DNA of 23,460 nt from a virus: IMG/VR virus record IMGVR_UViG_3300047560_000534, positions 1 to 23,460 of that record. One strand, given 5' to 3'. The notes beneath the pieces are model-generated. The model ran no database searches. It was not told where the DNA came from and saw only the letters and a program-made list of their open reading frames with translations. Position numbers and translations under genes: made by a program. Below are positions 1 to 23,460 of this stretch, piece after piece (position 1 is the first letter of the stretch; each line of letters begins with the position of its first letter).

Positions 1-35
1 GTATTAGTAAGGGCTACGTTTGCAATTACAGCCAT
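1..35 (-). CDS. 5' end of a structural (probably tail/fibre-type) gene, partial
   Basis: An ATG on the minus strand at 33-35 opens a reading frame that runs off the left edge (MAVIANVALTNT). An AGGAT Shine-Dalgarno lies about 6 nt upstream, inside the end of the preceding 72-aa gene. A start of the form MA-I/V-IANVALT is one I associate with virion structural and fibre-like proteins of T4-like cyanophages and their relatives, and the position at the end of a baseplate operon agrees. Only about 11 codons are visible, so the assignment is tentative. Confidence 0.5.
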   Translation of the reverse strand, partial: MAVIANVALTN

Positions 36-38
36 TGG

Positions 39-257
39 TTATCCTATCTTGTCTAAAATGCGCTGCATGAGCGTTTTGAGTTCTGACATTTCTTGTTTCA
101 TATTATTTATATCATCAAAGGCCTGATCAATTTCTCGACTTTTAGCCTTACGTTTTTTATAGGCAACTAAAGCGTCTATATTGGTATTCAAGACAGCCTG
201 ATTGCCCATATCGCGGATCAAATCAGGGTTATCTTGAACTTTAGCAACTCTTGTCAT
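39..257 (-). CDS. Conserved small coiled-coil protein (72 aa), function unknown
   Basis: The N-terminal part (VQDNPDLIRDMGNQAVLNTN at residues 7-26) reads like a family of short proteins found among structural genes of T4-like marine phages. The second half (about 38-72) is charged with regularly spaced hydrophobic residues (MKQEMSELKTLMQRIL), as in a short coiled coil. The ATG follows the stop of the 2140-aa gene by 2 nt, so it is probably translated from the same message, with a GCAGGT-like ribosome site overlapping that gene's end. No enzymatic motif is visible. A virion component or assembly factor is possible, but nothing in the sequence decides this. Confidence 0.8.
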   Translation of the reverse strand: MTRVAKVQDNPDLIRDMGNQAVLNTNIDALVAYKKRKAKSREIDQAFDDINNMKQEMSELKTLMQRILDKIG

Positions 258-6682: not shown

Positions 6683-6694
6683 GATACCTTCCGA

Positions 6695-8497
6695 TTAGTA
6701 TTTTACAACAAGTTTGAAATCTTCAGTTTGATCGACACTTCTGTTGATCGGAGTTCTATTCTCAGTATATATGACAATACCAGTGTATGGTTTTAGCGTA
6801 GGAGATATTACAGATTGAACATTTCCTGTAACTGTTGATTCGGAACCTGTAACAAGTTCACCAACTTCAAAACCTTGTCCAGTACCATTAGTCGTAACAC
6901 GAACAAGTTTTAGATAACCATTTGATCTAGCCGCGTTGCTATTGGCAAAATAAACAACACGAGCTTTTGCTCCGCTTGTTTGACCAGTTACAATTTCATC
7001 TGCTCTAAAATCTCCAGCAATACCGTTGACTAGAACATTTGTTGTTTGATCGACACGTGGTGTATTGGCATAAGATCCGTTTGCATAAAGTGGATCACGA
7101 ACAACGCCAATAATTCTAAAGTCGTTATTAGTAGGGAATGTATCTGATTCCGTTCCAGAAGTTTTCATATTCATCATAACAGCAACACCGTAGAGTTCAT
7201 CAACTGGATCTGATCCATGACCACCTTTTGGTGAAATAATAGCTCTTGCTGTAGCACCATAACCATATACAGAGTTAGCTGTAATTGTTACGTTTGCTGT
7301 TGAATATGAACGACCTTGATTGATTACGGTAATTCTACGAACTTGACCAGCAAATGTATTTGAAACATAAGCTGTTGCTCTCGATGTTGTTGACAGACCA
7401 CTATCACCACGAATTGTTACCAAAGGAGAAACAACGTAACGACTCGTGGTATTAGGTAGTGTTGAAAACGCTGTATTGACAACTAATACGTTATTTGCGC
7501 CAAAATACTTTACGATCTTGCGAAGCTGACCCGACCCTGCACCTTCGCTAATATAAAGACCAGAGCCAACATAAGAACCGTCAGTTGAACTTGCGTTGCT
7601 CTTGATTGTAAAGTATGTTGAATTGATAATGGTAGCAAATGTATTAGATGTACTCAGATAACCAGAACCATTTGAAGTAATTTTCAAATGTTGAATTGCA
7701 CCATTACTTGCCGTTTGCTGCACAGACCATTGGTTTGAACCGTCGTTGGCTGTGAGAGTTTTTACTGGAGCATATGCATTGGTACGAAACTTTAGTGCTT
7801 CACCAGGAGTAATTGTATACAAATACTTCCAACGATAACCATCAGATGTCAATTCGATGTTTGAGTAGTCGATGGTTGTTGGTTTAGAAGTAGAGTTTGC
7901 ACCACGGTTGTTATCAATGCACTTATATACGTTACCAGTATCTGTAATGGTATAAAATTGTTTTGTATCTAAATCTGCATCTTTGTCATCATATTCAGCA
8001 TAGAATGTGTTGTTAGACCAAGCATTGTTTGGAATAACATGAGAAACATCTGAAGATTGAAACTTCTTCAGAGCAATCATATCTTTCCAAACATCATAGT
8101 AAACATTGTTATATGAAGCATCAACATCCGGCGGATTCGTTTCAGCAAATAGTTTGCGAATATATGCGTTTGCGCCAGCAGTAATTGTTGAACTTGGTCT
8201 TGGCGTAACTACGATTGTCTGTGCACTTACAATAGAATGTACACGAACAACTGTTGATTGGTTGGTAATACCGATACGATCACCAACCGCCAATTGCGAA
8301 TTGAACAATGTTCCTTGCCCAACAATCGTATTCGAACTACTCGTCGTTTTTACTGTTCCTGATAAAGGAATAGCATTTGCATAAGCATGTGGCTTCCCGA
8401 TAAAGAAATAATATCGAGTTGGCATAGTTTCACTAAACGATTCAAAGAACTGAATCGCGTTATGAATTTTGAAGTGACGAGTAATAAGAGCTGTCAT
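6695..8497 (-). CDS. 8: Baseplate wedge protein gp8-like, enlarged (600 aa)
   Basis: The C-terminus ENRTPINRSVDQTEDFKL aligns with the T4 gp8 C-terminus ENRPPIIMAMDQTEEINI. The N-terminal region (RHFKIHNAIQFFESF, then YYFFIGKP) and the middle (YNNVYYDVWKDMIALKK, GYRWKYLYTITP) also follow gp8. T4 gp8 has 334 residues and forms a dimer in the wedge. This version has 600, mostly from inserted beta modules: residues 47-113 (a GTVK...GQGT...VGD unit that recurs in the gp7-like protein), Gly-x-Gly-Tyr units around 275-430, and SGAKARVVYF/GELVTG units around 500-560. The ATG is 3 nt after the stop of the 195-aa gene with little Shine-Dalgarno, so translational coupling is likely. Confidence 0.88.
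   Translation of the reverse strand: MTALITRHFKIHNAIQFFESFSETMPTRYYFFIGKPHAYANAIPLSGTVKTTSSSNTIVGQGTLFNSQLAVGDRIGITNQSTVVRVHSIVSAQTIVVTPRPSSTITAGANAYIRKLFAETNPPDVDASYNNVYYDVWKDMIALKKFQSSDVSHVIPNNAWSNNTFYAEYDDKDADLDTKQFYTITDTGNVYKCIDNNRGANSTSKPTTIDYSNIELTSDGYRWKYLYTITPGEALKFRTNAYAPVKTLTANDGSNQWSVQQTASNGAIQHLKITSNGSGYLSTSNTFATIINSTYFTIKSNASSTDGSYVGSGLYISEGAGSGQLRKIVKYFGANNVLVVNTAFSTLPNTTSRYVVSPLVTIRGDSGLSTTSRATAYVSNTFAGQVRRITVINQGRSYSTANVTITANSVYGYGATARAIISPKGGHGSDPVDELYGVAVMMNMKTSGTESDTFPTNNDFRIIGVVRDPLYANGSYANTPRVDQTTNVLVNGIAGDFRADEIVTGQTSGAKARVVYFANSNAARSNGYLKLVRVTTNGTGQGFEVGELVTGSESTVTGNVQSVISPTLKPYTGIVIYTENRTPINRSVDQTEDFKLVVKY
8159..8359 (-). repeat. GTVK...GQGT...VGD module, copy in the gp8-like gene
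   Basis: Residues 47-113 of the gp8-like protein, the partner of the module at 10516-10719. T4 gp8 has no counterpart, so this is an insertion near the N-terminus of the wedge protein. Confidence 0.8.
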
Positions 8498-8500
8498 TTA

Positions 8501-9088
8501 TTAGGCAGATGCTGTATATGTGATGTTCAGAGTGTCACCTGAGGTAACAACTTTGTCGCCTACTGTAAACAGACCTGCTGAGTAAAGAGTTCCTGTTGTT
8601 CCAGCCTTTGTTGACTGGTTTACAATGAACGCGCCCTTGACTGTACCAGCTACGTTGATTGAGAAAACAACGGCGTTTGCTGTTGCTTTTGAACCGGAAG
8701 AAGCGGCAGCCATTGTAATTTGACGGCGTGTTGACTGTGAATAGCCAGGAGCACGTGCTCCATCAGCACCAGACTCCAACCAGCCAGTATGCGATGACAT
8801 TGAATCGCCTGTAGAGATGGCTGTATAACCGTTAGCTGCAATTAGACCCATATACCAAGTTGTCGTGGCAGATGTTACGTTTGAAGCTTTGAAATGGGTA
8901 TCGAGAAGAAGGTTCTTACCGACTGTTGTTACAGCATTTGGAAACTCATCTTCCCACTTGACATTGCCAGCACTATCGTAGCAAAATGCTTTATATGTGC
9001 CATGCATATCGACTGATTCTGTTGAACCTGCTCCGCGGGTTACGGCAACGCTAGTAGAATCGCCTGGGTTAATCTTTTCAACTGACAT
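8501..9088 (-). CDS. Putative minor virion protein, 195 aa, between gp7 and gp8
   Basis: The protein is rich in Ala, Ser, Thr and Gly, with no Cys except one in AFCYDSAGNVKWEDEF (residues 34-49). A predicted mostly beta body follows (TTWYMGLIAANGYTAIS). Proteins with this start and the W-Y-M-G-L-I segment are common near tail genes of many phages and are usually only called structural. It has its own perfect TATAAATA late promoter at 9120-9127 and a strong AAAGGAG ribosome site 9 nt before the ATG, which suggests high late expression. T4 has no gene here between 7 and 8. Function unknown; a fibre-associated or decoration role is inference. Confidence 0.8.
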   Translation of the reverse strand: MSVEKINPGDSTSVAVTRGAGSTESVDMHGTYKAFCYDSAGNVKWEDEFPNAVTTVGKNLLLDTHFKASNVTSATTTWYMGLIAANGYTAISTGDSMSSHTGWLESGADGARAPGYSQSTRRQITMAAASSGSKATANAVVFSINVAGTVKGAFIVNQSTKAGTTGTLYSAGLFTVGDKVVTSGDTLNITYTASA

Positions 9089-9097
9089 TTATCTATT

Positions 9098-9104
9098 CTC
9101 CTTT
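9098..9104 (-). promoter_or_regulatory. Strong ribosome binding site of the 195-aa gene
   Basis: AAAGGAG on the minus strand, 9 nt before the ATG at 9088. It is one of the two best Shine-Dalgarno sequences in the leftward block. Confidence 0.8.
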
Positions 9105-9119
9105 GGGTTTAGATACGAG

Positions 9120-9127
9120 TATTTATA
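9120..9127 (-). promoter_or_regulatory. T4-type late promoter, perfect TATAAATA
   Basis: The minus strand reads TATAAATA, identical to the T4 late (gp55/gp33/gp45-dependent) -10 consensus. It lies in the 47-bp gap between the gp7-like stop and the start of the 195-aa gene, giving a predicted leader of about 25-30 nt. The position at a gene boundary argues against chance. Confidence 0.75.
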
Positions 9128-9135
9128 TCAAGAAA

Positions 9136-11745
9136 TCATGATCTATTTACACTATCGTCAAGATTTAGGGTTGGGTTGACAATAGTTCCAACTTGTGTTG
9201 ATTGATAGGTTGTAATCTGAGTTGCAGCATATGGAGTAATTTCACCGTTATTTTCTTGGATACCAGCTGATGTTACATTGCCACCAACAACCGTATCTGT
9301 TGCTGAAGCTGTTTCAGCAATTTGAGCACCCAGTAATACGAGGGCTCCTGTAGCATCATCAACATATACTGGCTCAGTTCCGGATGTTGCGTCTGTTATA
9401 CCAGCACCAACAACCGTATCCGTAGATGTTATCGACTCAGTTCCAGTATCAAGTGTGACAGAAACATATGTTCCTACGACACTATCCGTAGATGTTATCG
9501 ACTCAGTTCCAGTATCAAGTGTGACAGAAACATATGTTGCATCTGGTAAGCTATCAGCCGCTGTTACAGATTGGGTACCAGTTGTTAGATTACCTGAATT
9601 ATATGTAGCATCCGTAGCATCAGTTGAAGTTACGGATTCAGTTCCAGCTGTCAGATTACCTGATCTATATGTGGCTGCAAAACTGTCTGTTACACTAATA
9701 GTTTCTTCATGACCAACGTTCTTCGTAACTTCAGCGCTTGGGAATGAATCTGTAGATGTTACGGATTCTGTTCCCGTAGTACCAGATGTAATTTTACCAC
9801 CAACAACTGTATCTATCGCAACAACTGATTCATCAACTTCAACATCTTGTATATTTGAATATGATAGACCTGTAATGATATAATTTGGCGCTGTCGAATT
9901 GATAATCAATTCGTTGAAACGTTTTGTTCCTGCTGGATGCAGCGTTTTTTTGATAATCTCGCTGTACTTCTCAAGAGCTTCGGATACACGAAGAACGTAT
10001 GAAAATTCTTGATAGTAATAGTTATCCTGTAGCTTGTTGTTCCAGCTTAGGAAACCTTTTGTATCAACATAACGTCCTGGGAATGTAACAATACCAGATG
10101 GAATTGGTTGTGATTCGCCAGAGAATGTTTTTTGTCTACGAAGGTAACGATTAGCATTTCCACCAGATACGTTAGCCGAAGTATATGTCTTTACAATAGC
10201 AGTATTACCCTGCGATAGATTTAGCAGAGTTGCATTTTCAAATCTATTGAAGTTTTGACCAGGTGAAATGATTCTTAGTTTCTTGATTGCGCCAGGAGCA
10301 GGGTTCACAGATACTGTTGCGTTTCTTCCGATATAGCTGCTATATCCATCATACACGTTTAGCGGAGATGTTTCCGTATCGATGATTGTGATTGTTGGTA
10401 AAACAGTATATCCATATCCCGGATTGATGATTGCGATGGCATTGATTGCGTGATAGTTGCTGGCGCTGAACTTGAGAGCGTTGCCGATTGTGCTATATGC
10501 ATTAGAACCAGCAAGACCAGTATAAGCCAATGCACCAACAGTAATGTTTGTTGTTGCAGCAATTGCTGAAATGAATGTCTGTGCACTTGAAATAGAATGA
10601 ACACGTAATGTATTTGCACTTCCGTTTACACGGACAATGTCACCAACGTTTAGCTGTTCGGTAAAAGATGTTCCTTGCCCAACAACAGTATTAGAACCAC
10701 TTGCAATTTTTACTGTTCCGGTAAGTTTTGAACGAACAGAAGCTGTATTAGCTCCACCAGCAACAAAGAATGGTCCAGCACCAATTTGAACATTCTTGAG
10801 AGGTTCGATAATATCGATACCAAGTGTAACTGGAATTGACTCAAGCGTCCATGATGCAACTTTTGCTTGGAAACCAGTTCCGTTGCCGCCACTAATAATA
10901 AGTCTAGTGTTTTCTTTAGTATATCCAGAACCACTATTTGTGATTCGAATCTCAACACCTTCGCCAGTAGAAACAGTTTCTGTAACAACCGCACGAGCAG
11001 TTTCTGTTGAACCAGCACCGCCAATTTCAATAATATCATTTAGACTGTGATATGCGCCACCCTGAACAACTGTGGTTTCAATAAGAGAACCAACCTGCGC
11101 ACTAACAGTAACATAGTTACCAGCTTCATCAACAACGCGCTCGCCGTCAATAAATATACCAGTTACGTTTTCAACAACCATATCATAGATTGTCATACCA
11201 GCAGCGATTGTAGATGTAATACGTTGAACTAGCGCTGTTGCGCCAGACTGCACACCTCTTACGTTGGTACCACCAAATTGTTTTGGATTGAGTGAATATG
11301 GTTTACCAACACGCAGCTTTGTTTCTTGTACCCAACGACCATCTGAAGCACGAAGAATATCTTCGCCTGGATAATAAAACTCAAGCTCTGAGTCAAATAG
11401 CGCACGGAATAGAAAACGATAAGATTCTTGAGAGCCACGTGAACGATAGAACTCGCGGATATGTTTGGCTAACATACGCTTGTCAGCTAATACTTCTTTT
11501 GGAATATTGATCATAAACTCTTTGCGGAAATACTCCACAAAAGAATCCACGGTTCTATCAATATCCTTATTGTCACGCAGAGAACGAGCGGCGTTTACTG
11601 GATTGCCGCTTTGTTCCATATACTCAAAATAAGCTTTCATAAACGAAACAAATTGAGGCCCTTCCTCACGAATGAACCCAGGAAACTGAGTATCAATCTG
11701 TGAAGATATCTTTTTGAGTATGTCTTCTGCGCCTACGATTGCCAT
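9136..11745 (-). CDS. 7: Baseplate wedge protein gp7-like (869 aa) with C-terminal repeat tail
   Basis: The N-terminal 140 residues match the C-terminal part of T4 gp7. SRGSQESYRFLFRALF (about 103-118) corresponds to T4 TKGIEASYKFLFKVLY, and the preceding FVSFMKAYFEYMEQ corresponds to FEAFCEAYIQYLSD. A second match near residues 580-610 (SYVLRV...LHPAGTKRF) corresponds to T4 SYYVMKI...VHPVGFGF. The large N-terminal propeller of T4 gp7 (1032 aa) is absent. Beta modules fill the space between the matches: Gly-x-Gly-Tyr units, and residues 343-410 shared with gp8. The tail (about 640-825) is a tandem array of roughly 22-24-residue units around TGTESITSTD. The gene lies between gp6 and gp8, as T4 gene 7 does, and its ATG overlaps the gp6 stop (TAATG). 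Confidence 0.82.
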   Translation of the reverse strand: MAIVGAEDILKKISSQIDTQFPGFIREEGPQFVSFMKAYFEYMEQSGNPVNAARSLRDNKDIDRTVDSFVEYFRKEFMINIPKEVLADKRMLAKHIREFYRSRGSQESYRFLFRALFDSELEFYYPGEDILRASDGRWVQETKLRVGKPYSLNPKQFGGTNVRGVQSGATALVQRITSTIAAGMTIYDMVVENVTGIFIDGERVVDEAGNYVTVSAQVGSLIETTVVQGGAYHSLNDIIEIGGAGSTETARAVVTETVSTGEGVEIRITNSGSGYTKENTRLIISGGNGTGFQAKVASWTLESIPVTLGIDIIEPLKNVQIGAGPFFVAGGANTASVRSKLTGTVKIASGSNTVVGQGTSFTEQLNVGDIVRVNGSANTLRVHSISSAQTFISAIAATTNITVGALAYTGLAGSNAYSTIGNALKFSASNYHAINAIAIINPGYGYTVLPTITIIDTETSPLNVYDGYSSYIGRNATVSVNPAPGAIKKLRIISPGQNFNRFENATLLNLSQGNTAIVKTYTSANVSGGNANRYLRRQKTFSGESQPIPSGIVTFPGRYVDTKGFLSWNNKLQDNYYYQEFSYVLRVSEALEKYSEIIKKTLHPAGTKRFNELIINSTAPNYIITGLSYSNIQDVEVDESVVAIDTVVGGKITSGTTGTESVTSTDSFPSAEVTKNVGHEETISVTDSFAATYRSGNLTAGTESVTSTDATDATYNSGNLTTGTQSVTAADSLPDATYVSVTLDTGTESITSTDSVVGTYVSVTLDTGTESITSTDTVVGAGITDATSGTEPVYVDDATGALVLLGAQIAETASATDTVVGGNVTSAGIQENNGEITPYAATQITTYQSTQVGTIVNPTLNLDDSVNRS
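9280..9830 (-). repeat. Tandem repeats coding for TGTES-type units in the gp7-like tail
   Basis: About seven or eight degenerate units of 22-24 codons, each around TGT-E/Q-S-V/I-T-S/A-T/A-D followed by a short variable link. Two neighbouring units are exact copies at DNA level: 56 bp at 9417-9472 are identical to 9483-9538, with a 66-bp (22-codon) period. Outer units have diverged, so the inner pair is a recent duplication. Confidence 0.85.
10516..10719 (-). repeat. GTVK...GQGT...VGD module, copy in the gp7-like gene
   Basis: Codes for residues 343-410 of the gp7-like protein and matches residues 47-113 of the gp8-like protein (8159-8359). Identities include NT-x-VGQGT-x-F, QL-x-VGD and RVHSI-x-SAQT. 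At DNA level the two copies share an unbroken 18-bp stretch (10668-10685 and 8308-8325), which suggests relatively recent exchange. Confidence 0.8.
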
Positions 11746-13637
11746 TAGAAGTTATACAGCTTGAGTGATGGGGTTAGCAGCGTTGCAGTTTGACCAATAG
11801 TTTCTACGTTAGAAGCTGTAGCCAAAGTGTAACCACTGTTATCGTCGATGACATTGACTTCACTTTGCGAGATCAAAATAATCTGATTTCTTACTGGCGT
11901 AATATTAGGATTCAATGGCGCAGCAATAACAGAAATAGACTCGCCAGTAAACGACGATGGAACAAAGTTTGTTATTGTTATTGTACCAGTATCATAATCG
12001 ATTGTGCCAGCATTGTAGTTTGTATAGACACGTCCAAGTCTACCAGCAGTTGACTGGTAGTAAATGCGAAGTGTACCAAAACCGTTGTCATCGAAGTATG
12101 ATGTTTTACCAGCATATTCGAATGAAGAAGAAGTAATGGAACCATAACCAGGATGTCTTACAACACCACTAATAAGTTCTTTTGTACCCAAACGCTGAAT
12201 AGGGTTATTGAACTTCAACGTATAGGTATTCACTCCGCTTAGATTTGGCGTAAATGTTTTTCTCAAACGAATCTGAGCATCAGTTGTTTGAATAGCATCA
12301 TCTGTTGCATCAAGATAGTCTAGGAATCTTGAGAAACGGAAGCTATTGCCAAATGTTGACAGATAGTTTTGCTCGAACGAAACAATACGAGAAGCAATTG
12401 CTGCAGCAAGTTCGCCAGGGGTTTTTGTTGTAAGAGACACATTGTATCTTGCGTTTACCAACGGAACAATATACAAGTATGTTGGATCAACAATCTGGAC
12501 ATCGATAGCTTGAACATTATACTTGTTTAACTTTGCGATGATTTCGTCTTTGCGTGATGCCGAAAATAGAGTACCTGTCTTTGGCTTCGCAGCAATAAAA
12601 ACTTTACCATAAATTGGCGGATCGTTATCTTCGCCACCCCAAACATTGACGGCTGAGATATCTGGGTTCTGATCCAGAAGAAGTCTTCTGTAATCTTCTG
12701 ATGTTACACAACGATTCTGTGTTTCATACATGCGAGGAGCATTGAAACGAATTGATTCGATATCTTCGATATCTGCTCCACCAGAAGAACGACCAATCGG
12801 AACAATTGTAATACCAGTTTGCCCATCGATTGTTGTATTTGTTAGTGTAAATGTATTTGCGCCGTTTGGAATACCTGCGTTACAAACACGATAAGAAATA
12901 CTAACAATAGAAGAAGTAGCAGGTTGTGTACCAAGAACACCATCACCAAAAGCAATCTTATACTTTTTCTGACGATCAGCTTCGACAAAGTAAACTTTGG
13001 AACTTGAATTGACAGAAAGAATATCGCTACCAAGCTTATATGTTTGTGTGTTACCGCCAGATGTTACAGTTACAGAAATACTCGTTGTGTCTACCATTTC
13101 ATTTGGCAAAACAAACGATGTATTAGAACTTCTGTTATAAACAAATCTATGAGTTAGTGGCTCGCCTTCAACAATACTAATATAATCAGCAAAGCCATTT
13201 GAGCTGTTAGCAGTAATTGTATATGTCTGTGGAGTAACAAACTTATAGCTTGCTCCATTGACGGAAGTAGTAAAGATTGTGTCTTTAGGAACACGAATTG
13301 ATCTGAATGTTGTATTAGCCACAGAATTAGTAAAGATCAGTTGAACATTAGCTCTTGCTCCACGCGCCGACTTTGGCACATAACCTAAAGTTTTGGCATG
13401 TGATACAACTGAATCGTATAGCTGAGCCGTATCAATAAAGCTCTCGTTGACTGCCATATTTGTATAAAACGCATTATAGTATGTATTATAAGCAAGCAAA
13501 TCGAGCAATGTACCAAGCGCAGAATCACTAAAATCGTAATCCGAAAATTCAGACTTTGACGAGATATAGTTTCTAAGATTGGAACGGATTGTATCAAAGT
13601 CCAATCCTGTTACGATGAGGTCTGTATTGATTGCCAT
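11745..13637 (-). CDS. 6: Baseplate wedge protein gp6 (630 aa)
   Basis: The length is close to T4 gp6 (660 aa) and several blocks match. LLDLLAYNTYYNAFYTNMAV near residues 45-65 follows T4 LCDLLAYNTLYIQQFGNAAV. The segment GADIEDIESIR...TQNRCVTSEDY near 285-320 follows T4 GDPEDIERIR...TQQRCVTATDY. FIAAKPKTG near 350 follows FIAAKPKSG. This is the gp6/GpJ-like protein that forms the dimeric inner ring around the hub and clamps gp25, gp53 and gp7. The ATG overlaps the gp25 stop (TAATG) and the stop overlaps the gp7-like ATG, so 25-6-7 form one translationally coupled unit. Confidence 0.93.
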   Translation of the reverse strand: MAINTDLIVTGLDFDTIRSNLRNYISSKSEFSDYDFSDSALGTLLDLLAYNTYYNAFYTNMAVNESFIDTAQLYDSVVSHAKTLGYVPKSARGARANVQLIFTNSVANTTFRSIRVPKDTIFTTSVNGASYKFVTPQTYTITANSSNGFADYISIVEGEPLTHRFVYNRSSNTSFVLPNEMVDTTSISVTVTSGGNTQTYKLGSDILSVNSSSKVYFVEADRQKKYKIAFGDGVLGTQPATSSIVSISYRVCNAGIPNGANTFTLTNTTIDGQTGITIVPIGRSSGGADIEDIESIRFNAPRMYETQNRCVTSEDYRRLLLDQNPDISAVNVWGGEDNDPPIYGKVFIAAKPKTGTLFSASRKDEIIAKLNKYNVQAIDVQIVDPTYLYIVPLVNARYNVSLTTKTPGELAAAIASRIVSFEQNYLSTFGNSFRFSRFLDYLDATDDAIQTTDAQIRLRKTFTPNLSGVNTYTLKFNNPIQRLGTKELISGVVRHPGYGSITSSSFEYAGKTSYFDDNGFGTLRIYYQSTAGRLGRVYTNYNAGTIDYDTGTITITNFVPSSFTGESISVIAAPLNPNITPVRNQIILISQSEVNVIDDNSGYTLATASNVETIGQTATLLTPSLKLYNF

Positions 13638-14059
13638 TATCGAACCTTATTGAGATTGATGTCGATATCAACGTCGTTTAGCGTAACGGCGTTTCTGAAT
13701 TTTACTGTAATATAGAGTTGATTGCTGTCTCTATTTTCAGAAACAATCACTCCATTGTTCTCAGGAAGAACCGCTCTAGGTTCGTAGTTTTGAATTGCTG
13801 TTGCAATTTGATTTTCGTAATCGCTGGCAAAAACCGTATCAAAGTTATCGAATAGACGCTTGCGAACATCTCCGCCATACTCTGGGCGGAAAGGGCGCTC
13901 GTAGCGATTTGTTAGCAGAAGGTTCTTTAGACCCTGCTTGACTGCATCATCACCCTTCTTTACAAGCAGCTTGCCTGTCGATGGATGCGCACGAAACATA
14001 AGATCGAAGTCTTTGTTTGTGGTTTTAACGAGTGATGGTGGTAGTTGTCTTCTTTTCAT
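13637..14059 (-). CDS. 25: Baseplate wedge protein gp25 (140 aa)
   Basis: This is a GPW/gp25-family protein of the usual size (T4 gp25 is 132 aa). It shows the conserved core GLKNLLLTNRYERPFRPEYG (residues 43-62) and the family's EPR motif at 93-95 (NYEPRAVL). gp25 seats on gp6 and gp53 at the inner baseplate and nucleates sheath assembly. Homologues are shared by phages, type VI secretion (TssE) and other contractile systems. AAGGA lies just upstream of the ATG, and a near-consensus late promoter (AATAAATA) sits at 14076-14083. Confidence 0.93.
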   Translation of the reverse strand: MKRRQLPPSLVKTTNKDFDLMFRAHPSTGKLLVKKGDDAVKQGLKNLLLTNRYERPFRPEYGGDVRKRLFDNFDTVFASDYENQIATAIQNYEPRAVLPENNGVIVSENRDSNQLYITVKFRNAVTLNDVDIDINLNKVR

Positions 14060-14075
14060 ATGTTTTCCTTTTTGT

Positions 14076-14083
14076 TATTTATT
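14076..14083 (-). promoter_or_regulatory. Probable late promoter of gp25-gp6-gp7 (AATAAATA)
   Basis: The minus strand reads AATAAATA, one mismatch from the T4 late consensus. It lies in the 77-bp gap upstream of gp25, about 17 nt from the ATG, which would give a very short leader containing the AAGGA ribosome site. Confidence 0.5.
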
Positions 14084-14096
14084 CAGAAAAAAAGAC

Positions 14097-14125
14097 TTGA
14101 CAAACCAATCAAACGCCATTATAAT
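14097..14125 (+). promoter_or_regulatory. Perfect sigma-70 consensus promoter on the plus strand (antisense)
   Basis: TTGACA at 14097-14102 and TATAAT at 14120-14125 are separated by exactly 17 nt. Both hexamers are perfect and the spacing is optimal. The expected start is near 14132, just before the 3' end of the 439-aa gene, so transcription would run rightward, antisense to that gene and then to PAAR and the spike. No plus-strand gene with a believable start lies downstream and I see no obvious terminator. A candidate for an antisense RNA or an early promoter. Confidence 0.7.
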
Positions 14126-14136
14126 AGGAATTGTAT

Positions 14137-15456
14137 TCAGGCGGTCATAATACTCGTATTAGCTTTAGCTGCCGCAGCTTTATCCGTTTCCTCAATAATA
14201 TGTAGTGCCTCAGCTACAGTTGAGTTTGGCTTGATAGCAGGATACTTCTTTATCAGATCCGGATAGCTATACTTAGTCAGCTTAGTATAGTCCACTTGTG
14301 CAAGTAGCTCTGACGTATGCTTCTCGATCTTAGCTGAGATTTCCATACGTTTCTTTTCAAGATCAGCCTTAGAATTGTCTCGCCCGTAGCCACCGGAACC
14401 CCAGTTGACTGTGTTAGCGTTACCAACTAGTTTTTGTGTACCATAAGATGTTTTTGCTGGGCTATCAGCAATCATATTAGTGCGAGGGGCAATAGTAGAC
14501 ATTAGCCCCATAAACTGAGATAGTGGTTGCTTGAGAGTAGAAAGTGCTGATCCAGCTGCTGATTCCGCAAATAGATTTTTAGGAACAATAGGATCAATTG
14601 GCTTTGTTGGTGGCTTTAGTTTCTGCGGTCCTTCTGCATCTTTAGACGGAGCGATAGTAACTTTAGGAAGCATCTTGAGAGCACCGCTCGCAAGCACAAG
14701 ATTTGGAACGAGCGTAGCAAAGTTTGGCTTACGACCAGAAGCTGCCGTAGCAAGAAGAACACCAGCCATCGCATTCATATTGAGCATTGGGAAGTTTGCT
14801 TGAATACCAGCAGCTTTAGCAGCAAACCCGATCGGGTCAGCAGCAATTTTAGTCAACGCTGCAATTTCATTAGCTAGTGGAATCTGATTTGCTAGATCAG
14901 CAAGCCCAGGAATACCGCTCAAAAGATTACCCTTGATTGCTGAAAAGATAAGCGATGTTGGACCAGATAGACCAAGACTCATTAGAACCTTTACTTCAGC
15001 AATTTTATTTACAATATCTGCAGCTCCACCAATTTTGAATGGTAATGCTCCTGTTAGATTTTTGATTGCGCCAGTCACAGCCGAGATTGGACCATCAAGC
15101 CCAGCACCCAAGAAGTCTTTAGCTAATCCAGTCATCGCATCAAGCGCACCAGTTTGCTTTAGTGCAGCAAGCCCAAGAGTAATTGCCGGATCAAGTTGAA
15201 ATGGTGGTGCGCTGTATCCAAGAGGATCGTTGATCATTTTGACTGCTTCAGTATGATTTACTAGATTTGGATGATCGCGATTCATACGTTCTAGCAATTC
15301 ACAAAGTTCATTTGTTCCAGTATAGGTATACTCTTTATCGTTTAGAGTATACTTGTCTCCTTTAGCGAGTGGAATTTTCCCAGCCGCTTCCTGCTTTAGT
15401 TGAGCAAGACGCTCACGCTTTGAAACAATATCTGGTGTATCAACTATTTCTGCCAT
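14137..15456 (-). CDS. Unknown amphipathic Ala/Gly/Leu-rich protein (439 aa) downstream of PAAR
   Basis: I do not recognise the family. Residues 1-75 are charged and look globular (TLNDKEYTYTGTNELCELLERM). Residues about 90-275 are a long run of Ala, Gly, Leu and Ile-rich amphipathic helices broken by Gly-Pro (TLGLAALKQTGALDAMTGLA; LSGIPGLADLANQIPLANEI). Residues 280-360 are Pro/Ser linker-like. The end (about 365-439) is charged and helical (DLEKKRMEISAKIEKHTSEL). There is no signal peptide. It starts 4 nt after the PAAR stop with an AGGAT ribosome site, so it belongs to the spike cassette. Possible roles are a spike-associated cargo, a membrane-active protein or an assembly factor; none is shown by the sequence. 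Confidence 0.8.
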   Translation of the reverse strand: MAEIVDTPDIVSKRERLAQLKQEAAGKIPLAKGDKYTLNDKEYTYTGTNELCELLERMNRDHPNLVNHTEAVKMINDPLGYSAPPFQLDPAITLGLAALKQTGALDAMTGLAKDFLGAGLDGPISAVTGAIKNLTGALPFKIGGAADIVNKIAEVKVLMSLGLSGPTSLIFSAIKGNLLSGIPGLADLANQIPLANEIAALTKIAADPIGFAAKAAGIQANFPMLNMNAMAGVLLATAASGRKPNFATLVPNLVLASGALKMLPKVTIAPSKDAEGPQKLKPPTKPIDPIVPKNLFAESAAGSALSTLKQPLSQFMGLMSTIAPRTNMIADSPAKTSYGTQKLVGNANTVNWGSGGYGRDNSKADLEKKRMEISAKIEKHTSELLAQVDYTKLTKYSYPDLIKKYPAIKPNSTVAEALHIIEETDKAAAAKANTSIMTA

Positions 15457-15460
15457 TCAC

Positions 15461-15748
15461 TTATCCTACCGTAACTGATCCGAGACCACTTGATGCGTTG
15501 GGTGCACAATGTGCGCCGCCCGGAATTGGGCACAGTGCATCTGCCGCTGCGCTATCTCCAACAACAATAATACCCTTGCCGTTGATTGTAATTGAACTGT
15601 GAGATGTAGACAAAGCTCCACCACCGTCGGTATTACCATCGCCGTCAACAGAAATCAATTTACCACCAGCATAAACTGTGGATTGACCTGATGCAATCGT
15701 TGTTGCTCCGCATGCGCGAGAGTCGCCGTCTCTATGAATTGCTGCCAT
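15461..15748 (-). CDS. 5.4: PAAR-repeat spike tip protein (gp5.4-like, 95 aa)
   Basis: A small Gly-rich PAAR protein: AAIHRDGDSRACGATTIASG at the start, then SSITINGKGIIVVGD and the end GGAHCAPNASSGLGSVTVG. Candidate metal ligands are His5, Cys13, His50, Cys73, His80 and Cys81. PAAR proteins form the sharp metal-stabilised cone on the tip of the gp5/VgrG beta-helix and make first contact with the outer membrane. T4 gp5.4 is of similar size. The ATG overlaps the stop of the beta-helix gene (TAATG), the partner it should sit on. Confidence 0.9.
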   Translation of the reverse strand: MAAIHRDGDSRACGATTIASGQSTVYAGGKLISVDGDGNTDGGGALSTSHSSITINGKGIIVVGDSAAADALCPIPGGAHCAPNASSGLGSVTVG

Positions 15749-16467
15749 TATGGATTCATCTGAATTGTGCTACCCTTGATCGTATTTGTTCCAGACGATT
15801 GAAGAGTCATTGTTCCGCCATTTGCTTTTACAGTTGTGCTTGCTCCAGAAGCAATACCCATATCACCACCAGCACCTAATCCCATTCCTGTTGTAGCAAT
15901 AGCTTGGAAGTCGCCGCCAGATAGAACTGCATAAGTTCCACCAGAGATAACAGTTGCTTCCGATCCTGTTGACTGGAAATATTCATTATTATTTGTTTCT
16001 GTTTTATTTCCGCCAGTTACTTCGTCGCGGTTACCTGATGTGCGATGAGCAGTCTTACCATTTACTTGTGTGCGCTGATCGCCGATAACTTCACGAAGCT
16101 CGTTGCCACCAACTTTTACTTTCAGATCGCCACCAACATTCAATTCATAATTACCATCGACATGCTGAATAACATTGCCTGTGCAGTAAATATTGATAGG
16201 TCCGTTGACTGTAAGATTGAAATCGCCGGTAACAATTTCATCACGACCCTTATCATTGAAGTCCTGACGACCACCTTTTGTTGTGGTAATCATTGCTCCA
16301 TCGTCTTTGATCTCAATAAATGTACCAGAAGCATGATAAACATGCACACGTCTATCGCCTGGCGTATTATCAATTTCGATAACATGTCCAGCTTCAGTCG
16401 TGTAGGTATGATTACCGAGATACTCGGATTTCTTACCGCCTGGTTCTTGTTGATTCCAACTTGCCAT
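15748..16467 (-). CDS. Central spike beta-helix protein, gp5 C-terminal-domain-like (239 aa)
   Basis: The N-terminus (HTYTTEAGHVIEIDNTPGDR, residues 20-39) matches T4 gp5 from VHTMETESGHIQEFDDTPGQ, where the C-terminal domain begins after the lysozyme. From about 80 to 170 come short beta-helix repeats of the V-x-G-N type (DFNLTVNGPINIYCTGNVIQ; DLKVKVGGNELREVIGDQRT). The last 70 residues are Gly/Ser-rich. This is the trimeric needle of the cell-puncturing device, encoded as a separate protein without lysozyme. It starts 9 nt after the 282-aa gene and overlaps PAAR. Confidence 0.88.
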   Translation of the reverse strand: MASWNQQEPGGKKSEYLGNHTYTTEAGHVIEIDNTPGDRRVHVYHASGTFIEIKDDGAMITTTKGGRQDFNDKGRDEIVTGDFNLTVNGPINIYCTGNVIQHVDGNYELNVGGDLKVKVGGNELREVIGDQRTQVNGKTAHRTSGNRDEVTGGNKTETNNNEYFQSTGSEATVISGGTYAVLSGGDFQAIATTGMGLGAGGDMGIASGASTTVKANGGTMTLQSSGTNTIKGSTIQMNP

Positions 16468-16476
16468 TATTATTCC

Positions 16477-17325
16477 TTATCCTGATAAACCACCAGCACC
16501 GAACGACATACCCGTTTCGGGTGAATAGACTCCTGTAATACCTGCTGGATTTGAACCAGTATTCCTAGCCGTTTCATTTAGTGCATCAATCGTATCTTGC
16601 GGTGAAGCTGCCGAATTGATGTTGTCTTTGATCGTTTCAGCGTCAAATCCGGTACCAGCAGAAGTTCCATTCTCAAGCATCTCTCCAGCAACTTTATCTA
16701 GGCTTGCAGCAGGGATAGCAACAGCTGCTAATGGATCAACTGCTTTATTTTTAACTCCAGCAGCTTGAACATTATTTTTGCGTACAGTCTTATCTCTGCT
16801 TTTAGCCATAGTATCTTCAGCACGTTCTTCGTTACCGCGACCTACAAGAGACGTAGATGCATCGTCATTCAAAGCTGGATGGACTGAAGGAACTGGAGCA
16901 ATACCATTTTTGCCACCAAACAATTTATCAAGACTAGCCATAAGCAAAGTAACAGTCGCAACCTTTTCTAATAGAGTTGGGTTCTGTTGCTGAACTTGAG
17001 TGGGAGTTGGTTCTGTAATTGTAAGACCAGTTTCTTTAGTTTCACTAGCGACAATAATATCTGTGGCTACATCGGACACATAAGCTTCAACCTGATATGT
17101 ACCTGGATAGAGCTTTTGCGAGAAATGTAGTTTCCATTTATTAGGTTTTACTGATTCATCCAGACCTAAATTACCATCGAATAGTTTATATTTTGTGTAG
17201 TTTACATAAACAGATAATGTCTGCTTTGGATTACCGTTTATATCGAAACGTTCAAAATCAACATATCCCGTAAGCATAGGAGATGTATTGGATGTAGCCA
17301 GAGGTGTAATACTAATTTCAGCCAT
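16477..17325 (-). CDS. Unknown protein (282 aa) in the slot of the gp5 lysozyme domain
   Basis: I do not recognise the family. Residues 1-105 look like an immunoglobulin-like beta-sandwich (FERFDINGNPKQTLSVYVNY; KWKLHFSQKLYPGTYQVEAY; ending GLTITEPTPTQ). Next is one amphipathic helix (about 118-140, TLLEKVATVTLLMASLDKLF). The rest is low-complexity, charged then Ala/Gly/Ser-rich and probably disordered, ending SFGAGGLSG. There is no phage-lysozyme Glu-Asp-Thr motif as in T4 gp5, and no other hydrolase motif I can name. The ATG overlaps the stop of the gp5 OB gene (TAATG) and the gene is followed by the beta-helix gene, so it replaces the middle of T4 gp5. A linker or adaptor in the spike is inference. 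Confidence 0.8.
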   Translation of the reverse strand: MAEISITPLATSNTSPMLTGYVDFERFDINGNPKQTLSVYVNYTKYKLFDGNLGLDESVKPNKWKLHFSQKLYPGTYQVEAYVSDVATDIIVASETKETGLTITEPTPTQVQQQNPTLLEKVATVTLLMASLDKLFGGKNGIAPVPSVHPALNDDASTSLVGRGNEERAEDTMAKSRDKTVRKNNVQAAGVKNKAVDPLAAVAIPAASLDKVAGEMLENGTSAGTGFDAETIKDNINSAASPQDTIDALNETARNTGSNPAGITGVYSPETGMSFGAGGLSG

Positions 17326-17714
17326 TACATTTTATCTCCAGAACCAACTGAATTCTGTTCGGTATCTTCTTTTTGCTGAATATGTGGTAATACTCCAAAG
17401 ACAATAGGAACTTGACCGCCGTCGCCATCCATAAAGAATCCGATCACTTTACTATTTTCGACAAGACCTGTCGGCGAGTGACCAACACCAGAAATAGCAG
17501 CAGAAGTCGTTGGCTGCATAACATAACACCACGGCAGCTGACTCGTTGGCAAGTCACCTTTATTATCCGTATGATGACCTTTGATACGGACTTTGATGCG
17601 ACCCATCTTTAGATTATCTTTCTGTCCCGAGAACTGACCAGTGCCGCGATCCTCGACCACGCCAATCCACCACTTCAATCCGTCTTGCCCAAGAACTGTG
17701 CCAAACTCAGCCAT
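17325..17714 (-). CDS. 5: gp5 N-terminal OB-fold domain as a stand-alone protein (129 aa)
   Basis: WWIGVVEDR, MGRIKVRIKGHH and LPWCYVMQPTTSAAISGVG match T4 gp5 WFVGVVEDR, LGRVRVRVVGLH and LPWMSVIQPITSAAMSGIG nearly residue for residue. The OB fold ends about residue 110 (VPIVFGVLP). In T4 this domain joins the gp27 trimer to the spike and continues into lysozyme and beta-helix; here the chain stops after a short charged tail. It follows gp27 by 2 nt, as expected for partners. Known as the gp5_OB / Gp5 N-terminal family. Confidence 0.92.
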   Translation of the reverse strand: MAEFGTVLGQDGLKWWIGVVEDRGTGQFSGQKDNLKMGRIKVRIKGHHTDNKGDLPTSQLPWCYVMQPTTSAAISGVGHSPTGLVENSKVIGFFMDGDGGQVPIVFGVLPHIQQKEDTEQNSVGSGDKM

Positions 17715-17716
17715 AA

Positions 17717-18943
17717 TTATCCCTTGCTCTGCGAATCAGACTTACACTCAAGAATGCATTCATACTTCATATCTTTATCGTCTTTATAAAGAACATGACG
17801 TACAGAAGTAACCAGAAAAGAACCAGAACGATTATCCAGTTCACCAGTTTCTTGGTTAGCTGGAATATTCAATTTTACTTTGATTCCTGGCTTATATTCT
17901 GTATTACCCGGAACACGAACATTCATTATTAGGTTATCTAGTTGTGTTGCAGCTGACGAATTAGCTCCATGCTCGTGTACTGTTCTTTTATTTTCAGAGA
18001 TTGATTTATCTCTGGCATCACGGAATTTACTTCCAGAAGCTCCTGGAGCTACAACAAAATTGAATCGTTCTCCTCGTGCACTTTTCTGCTCTTTGGTAAT
18101 TTGATTTTTGCCAGTATGTGATGTTTTACCAGCGCCATCACGCTTTGATCCGCCGCCCATCTTACCCGTGGTAGGATCAAAGTAATACCAGTGATCTGAA
18201 TCAGCGCCATTGAAACGCGAATCGACAGTATTGAAATCTTTTTGTTGTTCGAACGCAATAATGTTTAGCTGTGTATCAGAACCCGATCCACCAATATTCT
18301 GAGTTGCATAGCTGAAGGTAAACTTATCACCTTCAGATAGCATCGAGTCGATGGTCTTGAAATGATATCCATCGCGGTCTTGATAATAGACATAATTCGA
18401 TGCTTTAGCCTTGGATGACTTCGCTTCTTTAGCAGCCCATCGAATAGCAGTCACAGGCGAGCGACCAGTTCCATAATACGATGCGTTACCCTCTGACTCT
18501 TCGTTTGTCGTCAAATCTTTTTTGATCGTTGATGAGTCTTTGGTATAATCATCGTGCCATTTCTTGACCATCTCCGAGAGTTTCTCTCCCGTATAAGCTT
18601 TAGCCACTTCCTTCGCATTATTATCCAGGAACTCTTGTGGTACACAAGTCAGTTCATAATAGTCCTGATTATCTTTGACACGAGTTCTGTCTCCAATAAT
18701 GCCTGTCTTATATTTCATGCGAATAGTGCTGCCTTCACGACTACCGAAAGAAAGCTCTATATCTTCGCCGCCCTTTAGTTTAGCTTTCTGGTGGAAACCA
18801 GACGCGTCGTTGACTGAAATATTGGCTGAAGTAGCTGTTTCATAAATGCTTTCAAAATAATCGAGCTTGCCTACAAGCGCTCGAATATCTTGACCATTGA
18901 CCGTACATTGTGAAACAATACCAGTTGCTACGTTTGGATTCAT
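17717..18943 (-). CDS. 27: Baseplate hub protein gp27-like (408 aa)
   Basis: Length is close to T4 gp27 (391 aa) and the architecture agrees. The N-terminal beta domain contains GEDIELSFG. A middle segment (SPVTAIRWAAKEAKSSKAKA, then NYVYYQDRDGYHFKTID) corresponds to the helix and strand pair of T4 ([27 protein letters not shown]). A C-terminal beta domain (YKPGIKVKLNIP...FLVTSVRHVLYKDD) corresponds to T4 LTPGVKIIFN...FYVDEVIHEL. gp27 forms the trimeric hub ring that adapts the hexameric tube to the trimeric spike. The next gene is the gp5 OB domain that binds it. The start overlaps the gp53 stop by ATGA. Confidence 0.83.
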   Translation of the reverse strand: MNPNVATGIVSQCTVNGQDIRALVGKLDYFESIYETATSANISVNDASGFHQKAKLKGGEDIELSFGSREGSTIRMKYKTGIIGDRTRVKDNQDYYELTCVPQEFLDNNAKEVAKAYTGEKLSEMVKKWHDDYTKDSSTIKKDLTTNEESEGNASYYGTGRSPVTAIRWAAKEAKSSKAKASNYVYYQDRDGYHFKTIDSMLSEGDKFTFSYATQNIGGSGSDTQLNIIAFEQQKDFNTVDSRFNGADSDHWYYFDPTTGKMGGGSKRDGAGKTSHTGKNQITKEQKSARGERFNFVVAPGASGSKFRDARDKSISENKRTVHEHGANSSAATQLDNLIMNVRVPGNTEYKPGIKVKLNIPANQETGELDNRSGSFLVTSVRHVLYKDDKDMKYECILECKSDSQSKG

Positions 18944-19560
18944 CGGACAAACTGACTTTCTTCAAAGATATATGGATGCTGGTCTTTGATAAGATGAACA
19001 TAATGCAAATCGAGTAAATAAATGTGACGATTTTGCTCGTTCAAGTCTTGCTCATATTCATATATTGTTACAGCTTTTCTATCCGTTGCAGGTAAAGCAG
19101 CATAAGTTGTATAGTCAACAATGATTGTTTTCTCTGGATAAATGCGCTGTTGAATACCATCAAACGCTGTATTGTTCTTTTGCAGAATCTTTTCATAGTG
19201 ATGTATAGTTTGATTTACATACGAAAATGTGGCTAGATCGCTATCGTTAGTTCCCATGCCACGATACTTCTGTAGGATCATATTATTGAATTGCTCGTAG
19301 CCAAGAGGCCATTGAAAATATGGATCATGAATCTCATTAGTCAATAGAACAAGCCAGTCGAGCGTATAGTCGTCATAATAGTCGTAGGCTACAACATCTG
19401 GACGTTCGCCGTCTTGAACAATATATTCGTCGAAAGTAACCGCAGCATTACTAATAAAATTAGCTACAGAAAAACGACGAGTAATATCGACAGCAGAAAT
19501 ACTTTTAGTTTGCCCAGGAATACGATAAGGAATCGTTGGGTGTGATACAAAGAAAAACAT
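18940..19560 (-). CDS. 53: Baseplate wedge protein gp53 (206 aa)
   Basis: Size and layout match T4 gp53 (196 aa). Conserved pieces include DITRRF near 25-30, RPDVVAYDYYDDYTLDWLVL (53-72; T4 has RPEELANAIYGNPQLYWVLL), HDPYFQWPLGYEQF and LQKYRG. gp53 joins neighbouring wedges around the hub during baseplate assembly and contains a LysM-like fold. The ATG is preceded by AAGGAAAATAA and the gene ends overlapping gp27. The gp48 stop is 9 bp upstream. Confidence 0.9.
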   Translation of the reverse strand: MFFFVSHPTIPYRIPGQTKSISAVDITRRFSVANFISNAAVTFDEYIVQDGERPDVVAYDYYDDYTLDWLVLLTNEIHDPYFQWPLGYEQFNNMILQKYRGMGTNDSDLATFSYVNQTIHHYEKILQKNNTAFDGIQQRIYPEKTIIVDYTTYAALPATDRKAVTIYEYEQDLNEQNRHIYLLDLHYVHLIKDQHPYIFEESQFVR

Positions 19561-19569
19561 TTATTTTCC

Positions 19570-20655
19570 TTACATATGTGCTGCAGGAGGAGCTCCAAGC
19601 AAGCGATCTGCTTCTTGTTGTGCTCTTCTTGCTACTTCCGCTTCTTCTGGTGTTGGCTGACGACCATTACGAGCTTCGTTGATTCTGCCATCAAGATAAT
19701 TTTTGGTAACGATTTCAGTTTCTTTGAACGCCAAAGTCAGTTCAACTTCAGCAGGAGCAGGATCACCACCACCATTTGCATCACGAATATATGCAGGAAA
19801 ACCTTGACCATGGTAATTGACTTGAATATCTGTGCAGACCGACGGTTGCATCTTGAATAGATATTCTGGATGACGGAACTTGATTTCAAAGAATTCAGGG
19901 TATTTGAAGAACATCCCGCCGCCAACAAACTCTGGGTGAGCGTAACGAGTAAATACATTAATAATATCACGGATTCTATTTGATTCATCTCTATTGCGCG
20001 GAGATAGTTTCCATGTAAAACGATGTTCACGGAAATCCACACCAGTAAATAAAATAATCTTATGTGGATTTACTGAAACACCAGCACCAACTTTTGCTAC
20101 TGCGTTGAATACATCACTTTTAGAACCTTTGTCCAGAAGAATTCCGGTAGCAGACCCTAAAGCAGTTCCAGCTCCACTTTCTAATGCACCGCCACCAAGA
20201 ACACCAGCTAGACCTGCACCATTGAGCAATCCAGGCATAGAGTTGTTATTATAGATTTGCTGATCAAATGGTTTTATAAGCTGACCTGCAGCAACATTAA
20301 GATCAGGTGAAGAATACTGTGGATTATAATCGGTAGAAACACCAGCAGGCATAGGCAAACGAATTGTTGCGCCAGTTACTTGAGTACCAATCAAACCAGT
20401 AAATAGTCTGATTCCTTTGGTAATTGTTTCATTACCTTTTGTTTCTTTAGCAGTGAATTCAATCCAGTGATCAATAGTTTTGAGATCGTCCGGAAAATAA
20501 TAATTACCGTCTTGAAATGGATCCGGTTTGCTGATTTGACCAACGAGTGATACTCGTGGGACTGCCGTTGTCTGAGACAATGCCCTAATGGCTGCTGTAA
20601 CACCAGCTACACCAGTTGCGAGTCTCTCTGATCTTAGTTGTCTAGCAGAAGGCAT
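19570..20655 (-). CDS. 48: Baseplate tail-tube cap protein gp48-like (361 aa)
   Basis: The length equals that of T4 gp48 (364 aa). The middle is Gly/Ala-rich and poorly ordered (LLNGAGLAGVLGGGALESGA), as in T4. After it comes the tube-fold half, with HRFTWKLSPRNRDESNRIRD (T4: KVFTWDLTPRSTEDLMAIIN) followed by a beta-rich end (CTDIQVNYHGQG...AEVELTLAFKETEIV; T4 ends SLPSTFTLEITMREIITLN). gp48 caps the hub-wedge complex and, with gp54, starts the tail tube. It is the first gene of the leftward block, with a perfect late promoter and a strong AAGGAG ribosome site 5 nt before the ATG. Confidence 0.85.
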   Translation of the reverse strand: MPSARQLRSERLATGVAGVTAAIRALSQTTAVPRVSLVGQISKPDPFQDGNYYFPDDLKTIDHWIEFTAKETKGNETITKGIRLFTGLIGTQVTGATIRLPMPAGVSTDYNPQYSSPDLNVAAGQLIKPFDQQIYNNNSMPGLLNGAGLAGVLGGGALESGAGTALGSATGILLDKGSKSDVFNAVAKVGAGVSVNPHKIILFTGVDFREHRFTWKLSPRNRDESNRIRDIINVFTRYAHPEFVGGGMFFKYPEFFEIKFRHPEYLFKMQPSVCTDIQVNYHGQGFPAYIRDANGGGDPAPAEVELTLAFKETEIVTKNYLDGRINEARNGRQPTPEEAEVARRAQQEADRLLGAPPAAHM

Positions 20656-20660
20656 TGGAA

Positions 20661-20668
20661 CTCCTTTT
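20661..20668 (-). promoter_or_regulatory. Ribosome binding site of gp48
   Basis: The minus strand reads AAAAGGAG, with 5 nt between the site and the ATG at 20655. Confidence 0.8.
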
Positions 20669-20676
20669 CGATATTA

Positions 20677-20684
20677 TATTTATA
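20677..20684 (-). promoter_or_regulatory. T4-type late promoter heading the leftward baseplate operon
   Basis: A perfect TATAAATA on the minus strand in the 45-bp divergent gap, about 21 nt before the gp48 ATG. Initiation about 6 nt downstream would leave a leader just long enough for the ribosome site. I see no equally good element for the rightward gp4 gene in the same gap. Confidence 0.75.
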
Positions 20685-20700
20685 CTGGATATATAAAGGT

Positions 20701-21147: not shown

Positions 21148-21148
21148 C

Positions 21149-21760: not shown

Positions 21761-21763
21761 CAA

Positions 21764-22531: not shown

Positions 22532-22546
22532 TTGGAGTGAATTATT

Positions 22547-23257: not shown

Positions 23258-23439
23258 TGATCCTCTCTCATAATACACTAGCAAATTATTATCAGACTAA
23301 CTTTTCGTTGATGCAGCACCACAAATACTCGCTGAGTGATATCGATGGAATGATTCCGTGGGAGAGAGATATTTACGTCAAGATGCTTATTGAGCATCTG
23401 GAAAAACTAAAAGAAGAACAAGAAAAAGCAAGGCGATAA
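23257..23439 (+). CDS. gp51-like small hub assembly protein, likely -1 extension of gp26 (60 aa)
   Basis: The core LSDIDGMIPWERDIYVKMLI (residues 26-45) resembles the W-E-R-D/E-I/V-Y segment I know from short baseplate hub assembly catalyst (gp51-like) proteins. The last 17 residues are Lys/Glu-rich and helical. Its ATG overlaps the gp26 stop (TAATG), with no ribosome site at normal distance. It could be made by coupled re-initiation, by -1 frameshifting as a gp26 fusion, or both. The position right before the presumed tape-measure gene fits the second part of a tail assembly chaperone. Confidence 0.75.
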   Translation: MILSHNTLANYYQTNFSLMQHHKYSLSDIDGMIPWERDIYVKMLIEHLEKLKEEQEKARR

Positions 23440-23460
23440 ATGTCAAAGGAAGACGAAGAG
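23440..23460 (+). CDS. 5' end of next gene, probably tape-measure protein, partial
   Basis: ATG follows the TAA of the 60-aa ORF directly, with AAGG 6 nt upstream. Seven codons are visible (MSKEDEE). A tape-measure gene (T4 gp29 or a larger far-T4 type) is expected here because assembly-chaperone genes normally precede it. The visible residues neither prove nor exclude this. Confidence 0.5.

Follow-up and report, generated by a model that had tools for sequence, protein, structure and literature searches.

The window, a 23,460-base virus record of a T4-like phage analysed at its full length, carries what is almost certainly a real promoter opposing late genes. Judged by sequence comparison, the interval 14087–14151 on the plus strand is a genuine and strong host sigma-70-type promoter that runs against the late hub operon. 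It belongs to a module (A-tract, TTGACA, 17 nt, TATAAT, start dyad and GGTCA) that occurs two or three times in each near-complete genome and always opposes the upstream gene. The best reading of the module is that of an early antisense start for the host polymerase, and it may mark either a start of DNA copying or an early silencing of late genes in uncultured T4-like phages.

A perfect host-type promoter directed into the hub genes

An earlier note on this DNA had described a perfect sigma-70 promoter that lies in an intergenic gap, on the strand opposite to the resident genes, and is very unlikely to have arisen by chance. Both hexamers and the 17-nt spacing proved to be exact on the plus strand (12/12). 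The promoter is located in a 77-nt gap between gp25 and a gene encoding a 439-aa protein, both on the minus strand, and the gene map agrees with the note that it is directed into the 439-aa, PAAR and gp5-like spike genes. The features of the region are as follows.

14087–14093, plus strand: A-tract just 5' of the -35; A-rich in most relatives
14097–14102, plus strand: -35 hexamer TTGACA; exact, kept in relatives
14103–14119, plus strand: 17-nt spacer; length fixed, sequence free, CCAT beside the -10 partly conserved
14120–14125, plus strand: -10 hexamer TATAAT; exact, kept in relatives
14128–14138, plus strand: inverted repeat GAAT-TGT-ATTC, its midpoint at the predicted start (~14132–14133)
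14143–14151, plus strand: GGTCA followed by the -10-like CATAAT; conserved whether coding or not
14076–14083, minus strand: AATAAATA, late promoter motif of the T4-like kind for gp25; lies shortly before the -35, on the other strand
13637–14059, minus strand: gp25 baseplate wedge gene (phrog_261, E 4e-32; phrog_43)
14137–15456, minus strand: 439-aa gene opposed by the promoter, without a PHROG
15461–15748, minus strand: PAAR gene (phrog_281)
15748–16467, minus strand: gp5-like spike gene (phrog_430)

We take the A-tract to be UP-element-like; it is missing or interrupted in four related loci (L033, L034, L085 and L087). Beyond the spike gene, the minus strand encodes a 282-aa protein without a family, an OB-type gp5 part, a tail protein, a gp53-like wedge protein and a tube cap, and the genes for head-closure gp4, end protector gp2 and tail proteins diverge on the plus strand from ~20.7 kb. 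The hub protein gp5 is split across 15748–17714 into an OB-type protein (17325–17714), the familyless 282-aa protein and the spike, and a separate 'OB domain protein' is annotated also in Methylophilales phage Melnitz. Further T4-type late promoter motifs (TATAAATA) are located at 20684, 9127 and 111 on the minus strand, close to gene or operon starts, and at 21054 on the plus strand. The 869-aa protein encoded at 9136–11745 contains degenerate tandem repeats of the TESVTSTDS type in its C-terminal part. The psbA family was absent from all 5 of the 5 records searched, which does not settle the host.

The promoter pattern with up to three mismatches matched the window 44 times, a single time with no mismatch, and a promoter scan of 5000–23460 returned 14097–14125 as the sole 12/12 site. 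Based on the base composition (41% GC), the whole window is expected to contain 0.0098 perfect sites at spacing 17 and 0.030 at spacings of 16–18, and the 77-nt gap 2e-5, in keeping with the note's view of chance. Weaker promoter-like sites occur at chance level (48 found vs 50.4 expected from shuffles), so that 14097–14125 is distinguished by its perfect match and its conservation, and not by the occurrence of promoter-like sites per se. Other roles for the gap and the window were considered and rejected: a sense promoter using the symmetric ATTATAAT, for which the best sense scores were 8–10 of 12; a sense-strand terminator, no stable stem being visible by eye ahead of the T-run; and a tRNA or tmRNA anywhere in the window.

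Conservation of the promoter beside gp25

A search with the 439-aa protein identified 33 viral contigs, which together with the window form a set of 34 loci. The opposing promoter was present in the 439-aa/gp25 gap of all 34 with a spacer of exactly 17 nt, scoring 12/12 in 29 and 11/12 in 5. The -35 was TTGACA in 31 loci and TTGACG in 3, and the -10 was TATAAT in 32 and TATACT in 2. Mean column information among the 28 unique sequences reached 1.94 bits in each hexamer vs 0.58 in the spacer, which is the footprint expected of a promoter. The late promoter motif was likewise found in the gap, close to the -35, at 34/34 loci. The 439-aa gene is widespread in environmental contigs, but a tblastn search of 50,697 isolate phage records with it gave no match.

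A wider search used a gp25 alignment and yielded the best 80 of 105 loci, whose contigs overlap with the 33 of the 439-aa search. Among these best 80, an opposing promoter scoring at least 11/12 was found in 73, at a distance of 19–70 nt from where the gp25 match starts, and the loci that keep it extend down to 39% gp25 identity, with a drifting spacer sequence. The misses are six loci with no opposing promoter at gp25 (L117–L122) and one, L104, with only an unrelated 11/12 match (spacer 18) at 217 nt from the gp25 match; all seven were excluded from the dyad sets described below. The gp25 genes of L012 and L018 are cut. More distant gp25 loci carry TTTACA-17-TATAAT or TTGACA-16-TATAAT, the 16-nt spacer being found in three of them (L105, L107 and L111). 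The gene that is opposed varies as well, being the 439-aa gene, PAAR (for example in L077, L108 and L115) or another hub gene (L107 and L111). Across these loci the position of the promoter tracks gp25 and not any opposed target gene.

These results bear on whether the promoter is a chance match or a functionless relic, the latter having been suggested in the earlier note. The odds of a perfect site in 23 kb are roughly 1 in 100, which leaves some room for chance. Nevertheless, the element is kept in 73/80 gp25 loci (best 80 of 105) and in 54/55 uvsY loci despite spacer drift. The comparative data at both places refute a chance origin, and conservation of this strength speaks against a relic, so we give this explanation almost no credence. 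Conservation of the hexamers with the gp25 gap, which the note had named as a check, was borne out in both locus sets, and by this comparative evidence the promoter is functional.

A dyad and GGTCA at the predicted start

Conservation extends ~25 nt past the -10, whether the DNA is coding or not, and covers a short inverted repeat followed by GGTCA and a -10-like hexamer. This repeat is centred 7–8 nt past the -10, where transcription is predicted to start. Perfect arms of at least 4 were seen in 29/44 unique gp25-site and 20/34 unique uvsY-site sequences vs 8/98 control promoters, the controls being gene-strand and other promoters of at least 11/12 from four long genomes, read in gene direction. 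GGTCA or CGTCA was present in 24/44 sequences at the gp25 site and 21/34 at the uvsY site, vs 5/98 gene-directed promoters.

A control window at +22..39 also contained perfect 4-bp arms, namely in 41% of the gp25-site and 35% of the uvsY-site sequences. Part of the dyad excess is therefore due to composition and relatedness, and for this reason the register of the dyad was tested. When the arms were dealt anew, the observed pairing at the start centre was matched in 0/2000 shuffles, which ignore relatedness; pairs per sequence amounted to 3.03 observed vs 2.44 with re-dealt arms at the gp25 site and 2.50 vs 1.60 at the uvsY site. Neighbouring registers displayed no excess, except that a shift by one step at the gp25 site gave a weak signal (0.017). 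The changes are compensatory, with A-T, G-C, T-A and C-G all occurring at one pair. The register test is better evidence for the dyad than the perfect-arm counts. An operator for one repressor is unlikely and was rejected, since the dyads differ between sites of one genome, for example GAAT-TGT-ATTC and GGAT-GTT-ATCC within G018.

Further copies at uvsY and a third site

Four long genomes were available among the relatives: G018 (139 kb), G019 (158 kb) and G020 (155 kb), all near-complete-sized, and G011 (107 kb). Their strong promoters are mostly co-directed with the genes (the promoter matches of W04–W09 are those among the matches listed). Among the 12/12 promoters of the four genomes, the start motif accompanied 9 of 11 opposing vs 4 of 27 gene-directed ones (Fisher p 0.0002), the match of these four gene-directed promoters being to the loose form of the motif. 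The opposing copies that bear the motif are located at gp25 in all four genomes, at uvsY in G018, G019 and G020, and near a phrog_455 gene in G019 and G020, where the G019 copy lies beside a cytidyltransferase gene. Opposing promoters lacking the start motif comprised one 12/12 site each in G020 and G011 (16-nt spacer), and 2, 3, 3 and 1 sites of 11/12 in G018, G019, G020 and G011, respectively. Two gene-directed 12/12 promoters, G019:110160 and G018:126731, have a common GGGGTCA leader right before the ATG of a frame that begins MAILPIY, and the opposing module may have been derived from a leader of this type.

The uvsY copy came up without any search for origins. An opposing promoter of at least 11/12 with a 17-nt spacer was present at 54 of 55 uvsY loci, and 39 of these scored 12/12. 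The element is located upstream of uvsY and is divergent from the sense promoter of that gene (TTGACA-17-TACTAT and the like); in L127 the gene that it opposes is a tail-tube gene.

The arrangement at the start could suggest a roadblock or insulator, in which the perfect consensus and the start hairpin would bind the polymerase tightly and slow its departure, and the parked enzyme would end read-through from the upstream operon or cover the gp25 late promoter (14076–14083) until the late switch, the RNA being irrelevant. Such a device would account for the start module and for the late promoter lying so near the -35 at every one of the 34 loci, and it is consistent with the -10-like hexamer within the initially transcribed region and with uvsY having a divergent sense promoter of its own. 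However, the sense promoter beside the uvsY copy is of the early type, so that masking of a late promoter would not be general, and we regard the roadblock as an unlikely explanation.

Search for an antisense product

We further looked for a product of the antisense start. Synonymous conservation of the 439-aa gene, determined for 26 of the 34 sequences, was raised only over the last ~4 codons (observed minus expected 0.37 vs ~0.1 elsewhere). The window contains no antisense ORF of at least 30 aa starting within 300 nt, and the antisense ORFs of the 12 relatives scanned were not consistent, with none recurring. Rfam gave no match in the window, and conservation of RNA sequence or structure was not found to reach further than ~25 nt from the -10. 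On these grounds (no recurrent ORF, no Rfam match and constraint on only the first ~25 nt), we rejected an antisense RNA of a coding or structured kind.

It is accordingly quite improbable that the module serves to express a conserved small RNA, or a small early protein, from the strand antisense to the late gene. Early promoters of like shape do drive genes elsewhere in these genomes, among them the two with the GGGGTCA leader, which gives the idea some basis; the synonymous pattern, the ORF and Rfam results and the change of opposed gene among relatives all speak against it. The position of the promoter is maintained even where a different gene is opposed, and neither an ORF nor any RNA past ~25 nt is preserved, which indicates that the act of transcription or its start is conserved and not the product. 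The earlier note had proposed an antisense or early regulatory RNA that keeps the hub genes silent. Silencing as such is possible, but a sequence-specific regulatory RNA is unlikely, because the opposed gene differs and no RNA past ~25 nt is conserved. The note mentioned neither the start dyad and GGTCA nor the further genomic copies and the parallel with T4 oriE and oriF.

Replication priming and silencing as candidate functions

The leading mechanism, which we put forward tentatively, is that a short early RNA acts in place as a replication primer. The promoter would be read before the late switch, the host polymerase starting early at ~14132. The RNA would remain hybridised near its own G-rich start as an R-loop, its 3' end would prime leading-strand DNA synthesis, and the promoter would fall silent upon conversion of the polymerase to the late form. 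We lean to the primer because the recurrent neighbourhoods (hub/PAAR/gp25 and uvsY) coincide with those of T4 oriE and oriF, and because the start and not the product is conserved.

Several observations count against an origin: iterons, an unwinding element, a skew switch and repE-like ORFs are all absent, and the direction at uvsY is the opposite one. Evenly spaced 12-nt iterons, a trait of oriE, were sought as direct repeats of at least 12 nt in 13600–14800, and none was found. For the A+T-rich downstream unwinding element that is a trait of oriF and oriG, the downstream 60-mers were not consistently unstable: instability percentiles were 25–83 in the window, with group means of 46–78 at the gp25 site and 40–89 at the uvsY site, and the rise at +120 was weak (mean percentiles 78 and 89). 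GC skew and AT skew revealed no consistent strand-skew switch at fourfold sites, although skew is an uninformative proxy here.

A more far-reaching form of the primer proposal, which we consider doubtful, is a portable and repeated origin cassette, in which the perfect host-type promoter, the compensating start dyad and the two to three opposing copies would provide multiple R-loop origins whose positions, but not sequences, are kept across the T4 superfamily. To our knowledge, the third module site matches no known T4 origin, which counts against an origin function.

Following closely behind the primer, and a possibility to be taken seriously though we would not favour it, is early antisense silencing by transcriptional interference. 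Firing before the late switch, backwards through the 3' end of a late operon (the hub operon or, at uvsY, the tail-tube gene), would stop, through collision and antisense pairing, transcription that strays in from early promoters upstream, and the promoter would be quiet after late conversion. Silencing accounts well for direction and position: the gp25 and uvsY copies both oppose a late structural gene at its 3' end, and the opposed gene can be swapped. Read-through is a genuine danger in the long genomes, where the remaining strong promoters are mostly co-directed with the genes. Nevertheless, silencing leaves unexplained the conserved start dyad and GGTCA, the guarding of only two or three places, and the coincidence with the oriE and oriF neighbourhoods of T4.

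Either function would be of interest. How replication starts in T4-like phages outside T4 is largely unknown. One review describes just one predicted theta origin, that of Syn9, and calls the matter not known for other cyanomyoviruses (PMC2984593), and another lists R-loop use by T4 origins other than oriF and oriG as open (PMC3016281). A short recognisable module at two fixed places provides exact coordinates across many environmental phages. If silencing is true, the module would represent conserved early antisense transcription guarding late operons; such antisense control is documented in T4-like phages only once, as CfrI, according to passages of PMC2984593. No report of this module was found in the literature searched, which is not proof of its absence from print.

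Comparison with known systems

CfrI of cyanophage S-PM2 is an antisense RNA of ~225 nt over psbA and a homing-endonuclease gene that is expressed during infection, as passages of PMC2984593 describe it. Going by that description, the resemblance is antisense transcription in a T4-like phage, predicted here from sequence alone; unlike CfrI, the gp25 promoter has no conserved RNA sequence past the start. Cyanophages and marine T4-like phages have early promoters that, as far as the source passages characterise them, are of a host-like sigma-70 type that is also abundant in the long relatives of the window phage. Many of them stand ahead of genes, whereas the opposing class is mostly 12/12 and carries the start dyad.

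In other phages, a 12/12 TTGACA-17-TATAAT promoter lies antisense inside gp5 of Pelagibacter phage HTVC008M (L037:1997, minus strand), directly followed by an 11/12 site, and is reminiscent of T4 oriE. Phage JS98 has an 11/12 antisense promoter inside gp5, ~310 nt from the gene end, as at T4 oriE (L219:3791, minus strand). No antisense promoter of at least 10/12 was found inside gp5 of Phi1, 44RR, Aeh1 or K393, and no such promoter was seen in the gp25 gap of Syn33. The HTVC008M and JS98 sites speak for the primer proposal, and the negative results in the other phages against it. Three tandem 12/12 promoters, 74–77 nt apart, occur in phage Melnitz (L040:3508-3659, minus strand), in the region ahead of gp5, and oppose the surrounding small genes.

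In the T4 record, oriF (115321) adjoins gene 25 and the 5' end of uvsY, and the second copy of the module is also at the uvsY 5' end. In T4 the uvsY transcript itself is the primer, whereas the module copy is directed away from that gene, and oriF, in the source passages on it, uses a MotA-dependent middle promoter with a downstream unwinding element, while the -35 of the module is of the TTGACA type. For oriE, at 79355, the T4 record states that the 'primer RNA is complement of gene 5 transcript', and the primer strand carries TTGATG-17-TATAAT with a TG-extended -10. The window's promoter resembles oriE as a predicted early-type sigma-70 promoter without a phage activator, antisense to late hub genes in the gp5/PAAR/gp6 neighbourhood. 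The two differ in that the oriE promoter lies inside gp5 and the window's in the gap upstream of gp25, and in that the window has neither iterons nor repEA/repEB-like ORFs and its module recurs elsewhere in the genome. On this comparison the module should not be filed as a member of oriE, nor is it claimed as one of oriF, but it may work like oriE, with an early-mode promoter and a primer antisense to gene 5 as the model, and with the uvsY copy standing where T4 has oriF.
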